Shown here: piece by piece, positions 24,900 through 31,597 of the stretch
How positions within the stretch are numbered: position 1 is the first letter of the stretch
Layout of the letters: the number at the start of each line of letters is the position of its first letter
NCBI GenBank assembly: GCA_002763115.1
Contig: PFCW01000015.1
Span: forward strand, 11,334-47,089
DNA from: Candidatus Pacearchaeota archaeon CG10_big_fil_rev_8_21_14_0_10_31_59
GTDB taxonomy: Archaea; Nanobdellota; Nanobdellia; Pacearchaeales; CG1-02-31-27
Length of the DNA stretch: 35,756 nt
Reading direction: 5' to 3'
Position numbers and translations under genes: made by a program
The notes under the pieces: model-generated
Told to the model about the DNA's origin: nothing
Database searches by the model: none
The model's input: the letters and a program-made list of their open reading frames with translations, nothing else

Positions 24900-25247
24900 A
24901 TGGGAATAAAAGATTTATTCAGGAAAAAAAAGAAGATTTCAGTAATCGATTTAACGCCTCCGATAATAAAAAAAAGAAAAGAGGATGTTAAAGGTGTAAC
25001 TTCAAATACATCGGAAAACGAGGATAGTTCTTTCCTAAGTGATTTCGCATCTTCGGTTGATTCGTCAGAAACATCAAATTATGGATATGGTTCTGAATCT
25101 ACAGCATATGAGCCAAATGATGAAATCAGAATATTAAAAAGAAAAATTTATGATTTGGAGCAGAGAATAGAATTATTGGAGAGAAAAATATCTAAATCAG
25201 AATATAAAAAGAAAGTGGATAAAAATGATGAAGTTGTTGCATATTAA
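24900..25247 (+). CDS. Uncharacterised protein with disordered Ser-rich middle and C-terminal coiled coil
   Basis: MGIKDLFRKKKK...NDEIRILKRKIYDLEQRIELLERKI heptads; overlaps the start of lspA. Confidence 0.72.
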   Translation: MGIKDLFRKKKKISVIDLTPPIIKKRKEDVKGVTSNTSENEDSSFLSDFASSVDSSETSNYGYGSESTAYEPNDEIRILKRKIYDLEQRIELLERKISKSEYKKKVDKNDEVVAY

Positions 25248-25665
25248 AAAGCTAAATTTTCTTCTTATTTTGCTGTGTTTATTTTTGCTGGCGATAGACA
25301 GATTGACAAAATTGATTATTACAAAGAACACATGCAATTTTATTTTCTGTTTTAAACCAACGATAAATGAATTCGCAGTTTTTTCACTGCCAATACCTAT
25401 GATAGTAATCTTAGTTATTTCAATTTTAATTTTAATTGCGACACCGATATTATTCTTCAAAATAAAAGAAATATTGCCTAAAATATCATTTATTTTAATT
25501 TTCTCAGGAACGTTGGGAAATTTAATTGACAGAGTTTTTTACGGACATGTTATAGATTTCTTAACGTTCAGTTTCTGGCAATCTTTTCCAGTTTTCAATT
25601 TTGCAGATGTTTTGAACTTGGCTGGAGTTATTTTGTTGATTATAACTCTGTTCAAGAAAGAGTAA
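25225..25665 (+). CDS. lspA: Signal peptidase II (lipoprotein signal peptidase)
   Basis: Four hydrophobic segments, AIDRLTKLII, GTLGNLIDRVFYGHVIDFL, FPVFNFADVLNLAGVILL with both catalytic Asp contexts. Confidence 0.9.
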   Translation: MMKLLHIKKLNFLLILLCLFLLAIDRLTKLIITKNTCNFIFCFKPTINEFAVFSLPIPMIVILVISILILIATPILFFKIKEILPKISFILIFSGTLGNLIDRVFYGHVIDFLTFSFWQSFPVFNFADVLNLAGVILLIITLFKKE

Positions 25666-25695: not shown

Positions 25696-27105
25696 ATGCC
25701 AAAAGAGATTTCCAAAGAAAAAATCAGGGGTTATGCCTTGAAAAATGCAATTGAACATGATGGCAAAGCCCAAGTTGGTTCAGTAATCAGCGGTCTTTTT
25801 TCCGAAGGTCTGAAAAAAGAAAATGTTAAAGATATAATCTCGGATATAAATAAAATTCTGAAAGAGGTCAATGCTTTAAGCTTGGAAAAACAGAAAGACG
25901 AATATGAAAAGTTGGAAGATGTTATCAGTCATCGTGATGTGAGAGAAGAAGGAGAATTACCAGAATTAGAAAATGTTCATGGCAAAGTTATAATGAGGAT
26001 TGCTCCTTATCCTTCAGGACCATTACATATTGGAAATACTAGACAACTTGTTTTAAATGATGAATATGTGAAAAAATATGGTGGAAAATTATTGTTGGTT
26101 ATGGATGATACTATCGGAAGCGAGGAAAAACAAATAATTCCTGAAGCTTACAAATTGATTGAAGAAGGAGCAAAATGGTTGGGTGTTAATTTCTCAGAAA
26201 TTTTTTACAAATCAGACAGGTTGGAAATTTACTATAAATATGCCGAGGAGATAATAAAAAAAGACAAAGCTTATGTCTGTTCCTGCAAACCCGAAGTTTT
26301 AAGAGAAAACAGGGCAAAAGGAAAAGATTGTTCATGCAGAAAACAAAGTGTTGAACAAAATTTAAAATTATGGAAAGAAATGTTCAAAGTAAAAGAAGGT
26401 TCTATGACATTGAGAATAAAAACTTCAATGCAGGATAAAGATCCCGCATTCAGAGACAGGGTTATTTTTAGAATCTCTGAGAGAGAACATCCTAGAATTA
26501 AGAAAAAATACAGAATTTGGCCTTTGTTGGATTTTTCGTGGGCTGTTGATGATTATTTATTGGGAATGACCCATGTTTTACGCGGAAAAGATTTAATGAT
26601 AGAAACAAAAATGGAGGAATACATCTTTGATATATTCAAATGGAAAAAACCAGAATTTATTCACACAGGTCTTTTGCAGATTGAGGGTATAAAACTAAGC
26701 AAGAGCAAAGGACAAAAAGAAATTAAAGAAGGAAAATATTCTGGCTGGGATGATCCTAGAACATGGTCTTTGCAATCTTTGGAGAGACGGGGAATTCAAC
26801 CAGAAGCAATAAGAAAATTTATTATTAGTCAAGGATTGACAAAAAGCGAAACTACAATTCCTATAGATATTCTTTATTCTATAAATAAAGATTTGATAAA
26901 AAACAAATCAATTGTTGCAGATTTTAAAGAAGAAACTAAAACAAAAGCAAATATAAAAATCTTAATGCCGGATGCTTCTGAAATTTTTGGAAAAGCAGAT
27001 ATTAAAATAAAAAAAGGTGATATTGCTTATTTCAAAAATAGTGGATATTCAAAATATCAAGGCGAAGAAAACAAAAAACAGATTTTCTGGTTCTGTCATA
27101 AATAA
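25696..27105 (+). CDS. gltX: Glutamyl-tRNA synthetase, archaeal type, short C-terminus
   Basis: MRIAPYPSGPLHIGNTRQLVLNDEYVKKYGGKLLLVMDDT, GIKLSKSK, DDPRTWSLQSLERRGIQPEAIRKFI. Confidence 0.9.
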   Translation: MPKEISKEKIRGYALKNAIEHDGKAQVGSVISGLFSEGLKKENVKDIISDINKILKEVNALSLEKQKDEYEKLEDVISHRDVREEGELPELENVHGKVIMRIAPYPSGPLHIGNTRQLVLNDEYVKKYGGKLLLVMDDTIGSEEKQIIPEAYKLIEEGAKWLGVNFSEIFYKSDRLEIYYKYAEEIIKKDKAYVCSCKPEVLRENRAKGKDCSCRKQSVEQNLKLWKEMFKVKEGSMTLRIKTSMQDKDPAFRDRVIFRISEREHPRIKKKYRIWPLLDFSWAVDDYLLGMTHVLRGKDLMIETKMEEYIFDIFKWKKPEFIHTGLLQIEGIKLSKSKGQKEIKEGKYSGWDDPRTWSLQSLERRGIQPEAIRKFIISQGLTKSETTIPIDILYSINKDLIKNKSIVADFKEETKTKANIKILMPDASEIFGKADIKIKKGDIAYFKNSGYSKYQGEENKKQIFWFCHK

Positions 27106-30073: not shown

Positions 30074-31597
30074 TCATTGATTTATATCTATAACTTTTCT
30101 TGTTGGTTCTGAAGGAATATCTCCAACTAATACTTTATATTCGCCATCTTGCCAACCATCCCCCAACCATAATTTTCTATCGTTCCAGAATCTGTCATTA
30201 ACTTCATATACTAAAGTTAAAGATCTTGAAGAAGCATATGTGACACTAAAATCTGAAAAGTTTGGTTTGTTAACACCCAAATATCTATAAACGTCATCAT
30301 TTGTATCACTAATTCTTTCTAAACCATCACTAGAATTGAAACTTGAATAAATATAAACAGAATTCTTAGAAACTTCTGCTTCATTTTCTATTGCTAAAAA
30401 ATCCATGCTAACCACCATATAGGTTCTGTTATCTAAATCACTCCATCGACTTCTTAACAAAATAACATCATCCCCATATCTTTCTGTTAGTTCATTACTA
30501 GTTAAAGCTTCAGTGCATTTTACAGTATCGCTATGATTCACCAGATATACATTTCTCACGAAATCTAATTTAACGTATCTAAATGAACCAGGGTTACATG
30601 CTAAATTAGAGCTAAATCTATAATAACCTCTATCTTCTAATTCTTCTAATCTTTCTTCAAGTCTTGAATCTTCTTTATCTTGTGCACTAATTACAACTCT
30701 TGTTTCTTGATGAGATTCAGTTCTCTGACTTACATAAACATCTCCTGAAGAGGAAGATTGGGATCCTCTTTTATAGATGCTGATATCTCTTCCAACTTCA
30801 GAATAGGGTAATAAAGTGATATCATGATAGCCACAATAATCAGCAAAATTACTCCATTTTTCCAATGAATCTAAAACAGCTGGATTGCTAATATTCATTT
30901 GATCAACATAATCATCAACTTCTTGATAAGCTGTTGTAACAAGATCGATGAAAATATCTCTCGTATATTCTTCTGGTCTTAAAAATTTTAGCCGTATGTT
31001 CATAAGATATTGACTATCTGGTAAATTATAATAAAACTTTACTTTACCAACTTCGTTATTAGAACCATAAAACAATTGATCATCTACATTACAACTGGCA
31101 GATATCCAATATATAAACGAGTCGTATAAGTCTGATCGATCTTTATGTTTTTGAATCCTCTCGCTATCTGTTAAGCCACTAGTAAGACCCAAGTCCACCG
31201 CTCTAGGACTCCAGATATTATGAAATCCTCCGGTTCTCCAAGTAGTATGAGCATAACATTTTCTATCTTCTTCAATTCTTAGATTATCTATTTCTAATGC
31301 TATAAATTTAGAAAAATCTTCAATATATCCTCTTGAAAAACCAGTTGCTTCTTGAATAGCTGAGGGAATATAAAATTTAATATTGTCCACTTCACTGAAT
31401 GGAGATCCATATCCTTCTAAAACTAATTCATTAAATACCTCTTTTTCTTCAGTCTTTTCTTCTAAAGTTGTATCCACGCTCTGACCTCTAGAAGGTTCTC
31501 CATCGTAATTCCTTCCAGAACCACATGATATTCCTAAACCAGCTGCTATCAAACCAACAGCCAAAATTCCGTATGAAAATAAATTTCTTGACATCAT
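30074..31597 (-). CDS. Putative secreted protein/lipoprotein, 507 aa
   Basis: MMSRNLFSYGILAVGLIAAGLGISCGSGRNYDGE signal-peptide plus Cys; polar extracellular-type remainder. Confidence 0.75.
   Translation of the reverse strand: MMSRNLFSYGILAVGLIAAGLGISCGSGRNYDGEPSRGQSVDTTLEEKTEEKEVFNELVLEGYGSPFSEVDNIKFYIPSAIQEATGFSRGYIEDFSKFIALEIDNLRIEEDRKCYAHTTWRTGGFHNIWSPRAVDLGLTSGLTDSERIQKHKDRSDLYDSFIYWISASCNVDDQLFYGSNNEVGKVKFYYNLPDSQYLMNIRLKFLRPEEYTRDIFIDLVTTAYQEVDDYVDQMNISNPAVLDSLEKWSNFADYCGYHDITLLPYSEVGRDISIYKRGSQSSSSGDVYVSQRTESHQETRVVISAQDKEDSRLEERLEELEDRGYYRFSSNLACNPGSFRYVKLDFVRNVYLVNHSDTVKCTEALTSNELTERYGDDVILLRSRWSDLDNRTYMVVSMDFLAIENEAEVSKNSVYIYSSFNSSDGLERISDTNDDVYRYLGVNKPNFSDFSVTYASSRSLTLVYEVNDRFWNDRKLWLGDGWQDGEYKVLVGDIPSEPTRKVIDINQ

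Follow-up and report, generated by a model that had tools for sequence, protein, structure and literature searches.

The question raised by this locus is whether an archaeon can possess a signal peptidase II of the bacterial type and, if so, whether the enzyme belongs to a lipoprotein pathway. A 2022 review regards signal peptidase II as still to be found in archaea (PMC7613921), a 2025 review describes archaea as being without known homologues of the components of bacterial lipoprotein biogenesis (PMC12186497), and a 2026 study based on a RefSeq search of February 2021 gives Lgt as absent from archaea (PMC13251419). The stretch of DNA analysed here (35,756 nucleotides, hereafter the window) comes from a 47-kb contig of a genome of 635,659 bases in 16 contigs (89.4% complete, 0.79% contamination), which belongs to the DPANN phylum Nanobdellota/Woesearchaeota. 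It contains an ORF that a first-pass annotation, made from the sequence alone, had proposed to encode LspA; this ORF and the two that flank it are as follows.

24900 to 25247, + strand: ORF of 115 aa from the ORF list, with sub-threshold Pfam matches only; overlaps the start of lspA by 23 bases
25225 to 25665, + strand: lspA, signal peptidase II (Peptidase_A8), 146 aa, identified by PF01252, the match to LspA in the PDB, AlphaFold/Foldseek and conserved columns
25696 to 27105, + strand: archaeal-type glutamyl-tRNA synthetase (GluRS), TIGR00463 gltX_arch 422.5 bits, cut-off 401.75; starts 30 bases after lspA

The proposal was correct as to both the limits and the identity of the gene. Translation of 25225–25665 gives 146 aa with no internal stops, and a search with the Peptidase_A8 HMM (PF01252) matched at 87 bits (cut-off 25, E 1.8e-24) over positions 2–141 of the 142-position profile. 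A sequence search of the PDB returned good scores for LspA entries only (Staphylococcus aureus 6ryo, E 2.2e-12; 5dir, 2e-9), and an AlphaFold model built on a 46-sequence alignment (mean pLDDT 82) had 6ryp, 6ryo and 5dir as its sole significant Foldseek matches, with a probability of 1.0 and TM values of 0.69–0.76, the highest being that with 6ryp. By family and fold, the ORF therefore encodes a genuine bacterial-type signal peptidase II. Its TIGR00077 (lspA) score of 66.4 bits lies below the equivalog cut-off of 73.95, so that we refer to it as a divergent Peptidase_A8 member and not as an equivalog by TIGR00077. The four-helix fold, the catalytic Asp pair and 13 of 14 conserved residues are common to this protein and the LspAs of S. 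aureus (6ryo/6ryp) and Pseudomonas aeruginosa (5dir), from which it differs in having Phe at the motif II Gly, in its archaeal host and in its membership of a separate, divergent clade formed by the order. We consider it very probable, judging from sequence and predicted structure, that the gene is a functional lspA acting in a Sec/Lgt/LspA lipoprotein pathway of the bacterial type in a host-dependent DPANN archaeon.

The catalytic pair D118/D136 and fourteen highly conserved residues have been described for S. aureus LspA (PMC6952399), and their counterparts in the window protein are as follows.

25555 to 25557, + strand: codon of catalytic Asp111 (in VIDF), equivalent to S. aureus D118 by alignment; dyad from PMC6952399
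25606 to 25608, + strand: codon of catalytic Asp128 (in FNFAD), equivalent to S. aureus D136 by alignment; dyad from PMC6952399
Motif residues of the window LspA, comprising 13 of the 14 conserved residues: motif I, D25 and K29; motif II, N48, with F50 in place of Gly; motif III, G95, N99, D102 and R103; V109 and catalytic D111; motif V, F124, N125, A127 and catalytic D128

The assignment of D111 and D128 as the catalytic pair follows from the alignment to S. aureus D118/D136, and both residues are invariant across the 46 aligned LspA sequences. F50 replaces the loop/motif II glycine (S. aureus G54), a position at which the S. aureus enzyme remains active as G54A and is inactive as G54P (PMC6952399). 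The first-pass annotation had taken AIDRLTK and NFAD as the two catalytic contexts. The second does hold D128, but AIDRLTK was ruled out as a catalytic motif by the alignment to S. aureus LspA and the literature (PMC6952399), its D25 being conserved and non-catalytic and the real partner being D111 in VIDF. D102 in GNLIDR is conserved and, in the same alignment, lies outside the catalytic pair. In two LspAs of the same order (L269 and L274) Asn stands at this conserved GN..DR Asp (S. aureus D109); loss of a catalytic Asp was considered for these proteins and dropped, as the catalytic pair sits elsewhere and is intact.

Since both LspA and Lgt belong to families known from bacteria, and their nearest non-archaeal relatives are bacterial homologues, lspA might be ascribed to bacterial contamination or, as the first-pass annotation had allowed, to a contig chimeric with bacterial sequence. 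We rejected this explanation, which we regard as extremely improbable, on several grounds. The immediate surroundings of lspA are archaeal, as the adjoining GluRS gene shows; the window also codes for an archaeal ThrRS and a thermosome subunit, and the contamination estimate for the genome is the low figure given above. The G+C content of lspA is 0.279, compared with 0.317 for the window. Among 380 genomes sampled from the phylum, 247 of them better genomes, LspA was found in 248 (192 of the better genomes), and in four of the genomes (G004, G073, G323 and G348) lspA and lgt lie together on one contig; relatives whose genomes are single contigs have both genes as well. The 115-aa ORF upstream is a probable operon partner of lspA. 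The GluRS is short (469 aa, covering positions 2–400 of the 560-position archaeal model), its C-terminal part being missing or replaced.

A genome search for Lgt had been suggested along with the original annotation. One full-length Lgt is present (PF01790, 189 bits, cut-off 24.9; TIGR00544, 138.9, equivalog cut-off 118.9). Its gene lies on a different contig of the same genome from lspA and overlaps a gene of the DJ-1/PfpI family whose product has the N-terminus MKFLITISLIISIIFIILIAGCK, with a textbook lipobox, LIAGC. We compared the protein with the essential set of E. coli Lgt (Y26, H103, R143, N146, G154 and R239). Equivalents of R143, G154, R239 and also R246 are shared with the E. coli enzyme (5azb), and Y26, H103 and N146 are replaced by W, Y and C, respectively. 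The three replaced residues are reported as essential in E. coli; in other Lgts position 103 may be Y, W or F and position 146 may be C, the reported cases including some bacteria with Y/F at the former and C at the latter (PMC13251419). The substitutions are a feature of the window's order, whose Lgts differ from that of E. coli in having W26, Y/F103 and C146, whereas the main woesearchaeal clade (25 sequences) keeps nearly the whole essential set (R143, N146, G154 and R239 in 25/25, H103 in 21/25). Some genomes of the phylum have several separate PF01790 matches (six in G079, three in G355), which are perhaps Lgt paralogues or fragments. The third step of lipoprotein maturation is catalysed by Lnt, which is not universal in bacteria. 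No match to the LNT_N domain was found in the genome, and the control for this domain was positive in only 7 of 14 control genomes, from which we conclude that Lnt is not a required part of the pathway.

Across the 380 genomes Lgt was detected in 256 (200 of the 247 better genomes), and its occurrence follows that of LspA closely: 234 genomes had both, 14 LspA only, 22 Lgt only and 110 neither (phi 0.79, p 2e-56, with genomes counted without correction for relatedness). Both were present in all nine named archaeal genomes tested. Four archaeal controls (Methanocaldococcus jannaschii, H. volcanii, Sulfolobus acidocaldarius and Methanosarcina acetivorans) were below the cut-off for the LspA and Lgt families. 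The first-pass annotation had held that most archaea lack a recognizable LspA; within this phylum LspA is not rare. Family f2 of the window's order is mostly without both genes. Three of its members (G218, G288 and G374, all of genus g2) have a full-length Lgt of the main-clade type (L279, L276 and L278) with LspA undetected, and lipidation without signal peptidase II is possible there.

The 14 genomes in which LspA was found and Lgt was undetected, together with the existence of AliA/AliB lipidation in Haloferax (PMC12186497), might suggest that LspA processes proteins lipidated by another, AliA/AliB-like system, or unlipidated precursors, and that Lgt is not its partner. The strength of the LspA/Lgt co-occurrence and the retention, in the main clade, of active-site residues of Lgt argue against this, and we think it very unlikely. 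The Haloferax volcanii pathway resembles the one proposed here in that lipobox proteins are made in an archaeon and the lipid is placed on Cys+1, as would also be the case here; it differs in that AliA/AliB are described as non-homologous to the Lgt of bacteria and LspA had not been known in archaea, while the DPANN genomes studied here have both bacterial-type enzymes. The enzymes themselves are of known families, and what is new is their presence in archaea, which contradicts the published statements cited above. We found no earlier report of LspA or Lgt in DPANN, Nanoarchaeota or Woesearchaeota in the literature searched, which did not take in the original AliA/AliB paper, so that the absence of such a report is unproven.

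The two enzymes differ in what their trees reveal. Lgt sequences of the main woesearchaeal group fall into one clade (97/91), which adjoins a sequence from an Atribacteria genome, and those of the window's order are placed apart, among bacterial sequences. A single origin of archaeal Lgt was rejected (AU p 0.003, in a tree with long branches), indicating at least two acquisitions of Lgt from bacteria. The LspA of the window also has a long branch in the trees. The phylogeny of this short protein is poorly resolved, with an AU p of 0.40 for a single archaeal origin, and the gene probably came to these archaea from bacteria. The LspAs of the order, including the present one, nevertheless form one clade (100/99) that extends over three families besides that of the window, with the catalytic pair in all six full-length members, and the gene has thus been kept in the order over several families.

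A working pathway also requires substrates. The first-pass annotation had pointed to two proteins in the window with signal-peptide-like N-termini ending in Cys (LGIFFGC and LGISCGSG) and had suggested a relaxed lipobox.

233 to 1225, − strand: candidate lipoprotein of 330 aa, counted from Met28 of ORF 233–1306 as the likely start, signal peptide ending ...GIFFGC; found by the PS00013-type pattern, not by the strict scan
30074 to 31597, − strand: candidate lipoprotein of 507 aa, N-terminus MMSRNLFSYGILAVGLIAAGLGISCGSG, Cys25; found by the PS00013-type pattern, not by the strict scan

Both N-termini are present and fit a relaxed rule of the PROSITE PS00013 type. Pfam assigned the first protein to no family, and Pfam and a further profile search found none for the second. 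Elsewhere in the genome, most candidates show lipoboxes of the ordinary kind (ISGC, IAGC, LTAC, IVGC and LGGC), so that only these two weaker ones call for a relaxed form. We then compared stretches of six genomes with both enzymes (1.43 Mb) and of three genomes of the same order with neither (0.73 Mb), using a home-made scan that asks for a positively charged start, a hydrophobic stretch free of charged residues, a strict lipobox and polar sequence after it, in which Cys is compared with all other residues at that position, and the expectation is derived from background Cys frequency. A first, looser scan had not clearly separated the genomes with and without the pathway. The strict scan, with stricter filters, more sequence and the background control, gave 23 candidates against 1.98 expected in the genomes with both enzymes (P 4e-17) and 1 against 0.89 in those with neither (Fisher p 8e-4), P values that must be read in the light of the rules having been altered once after the first result. 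The PS00013-type rule, which we take as an outside standard, agreed with the strict scan (36 against 5.2 expected with the pathway, 3 against 1.8 without; p 2e-4). For the genome of the window, of which about 366 kb of 636 kb (about 58%) was scanned, the strict scan gave 6 against 0.46 expected and the PS00013-type rule 10 against 1.5 (P 5e-6), both window candidates included. The signal is uneven, being strong in G000, G004, G073 and G078 and weak in relatives of the same order, with no clear excess in G323 and G348 (0 and 1 by the strict scan). A run of six consecutive lipobox proteins, each about 200 aa long, is encoded on one strand in G078 (L261:2116–7085). In G232, a single-contig genome in which Lgt and LspA are undetectable, lipobox-like proteins occur at L199:17845–19824 and L193:17821–19179; these may be due to chance or to another pathway.

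This unevenness bears on a further explanation, namely that in the window's order LspA and Lgt are decaying or repurposed remnants of weak or altered activity, the pathway being at work in the main woesearchaeal lineages. The long branches, the substitutions at Lgt Y26, H103 and N146 and at LspA G54, the Asp to Asn change in L269 and L274, the scarcity of both genes in family f2 and the few lipoboxes of G323 and G348 could all be read in this way. Set against them are the intact ORFs for both enzymes in the window's own genome, the catalytic dyad of LspA and R143 and R239 of Lgt, the lipobox excess by either rule in that same genome, and the conservation of the LspA clade and its catalytic pair over three further families. 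On balance we consider decay unlikely and favour a functional pathway, as the first-pass annotation had supposed and as the full-length Lgt, the phylum-wide co-occurrence of the enzymes and the lipobox excess suggest.

In such a pathway, proteins that carry both a signal peptide and a lipobox would be exported via Sec, Lgt would take a glyceryl lipid off a membrane phospholipid and attach it to the lipobox cysteine, and LspA, as an intramembrane aspartyl protease using the D111/D128 dyad, would then cut before the lipidated Cys to leave a membrane-anchored protein; as no Lnt was found, N-acylation is not expected. The computations establish what the gene is, its fold and catalytic residues, the archaeal setting, the presence of Lgt, the co-occurrence of the two enzymes among genomes and the excess of lipoboxes; we infer enzymatic activity, the order of the steps and the lipid donor. 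Searches of the genome for GGGP synthase and CarS (CDP-archaeol synthase) were negative, which at 89% completeness suggests that the cell is probably without archaeal phospholipid synthesis of its own and that the lipid donor, probably an archaeal ether phospholipid, is probably derived from the host cell. If the membrane is archaeal, the donor must differ from bacterial phosphatidylglycerol, and if the enzymes are active the lipid that they must use would also be new. We put forward tentatively, and with somewhat less than even confidence, the idea that bacterial Lgt (at least twice) and LspA were captured by DPANN archaea and act on host-derived archaeal ether phospholipids, giving archaeol-anchored lipoproteins in cells with no lipid synthesis of their own, and that W26, Y103 and C146 in the window's order may be adaptations to that donor.

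The finding thus goes further than first proposed: a bacterial-type Lgt/LspA pathway of predicted function is common in one DPANN phylum. The presence of both enzymes in about two thirds of the genomes sampled offers a candidate answer to how lipoproteins are made in part of the Archaea, and opens the question to assays already established for bacteria. A further issue is how a phosphatidylglycerol-binding enzyme of bacterial type would cope with archaeal lipids, in which the glycerol has the opposite stereochemistry, and surface lipoproteins may bear on host contact in these host-dependent cells. In E. coli Lgt, Y26 makes contact with the phospholipid phosphate. Among bacterial Lgts with a residue at this position (n=16) it is Tyr in 15 and Phe in one, and Trp occupies it in the sequences of the window's order and its tree neighbours (L002, L280, L281, L284, L286–L288, L134, L283, L290 and L291), where it is possibly tied to a different donor lipid.
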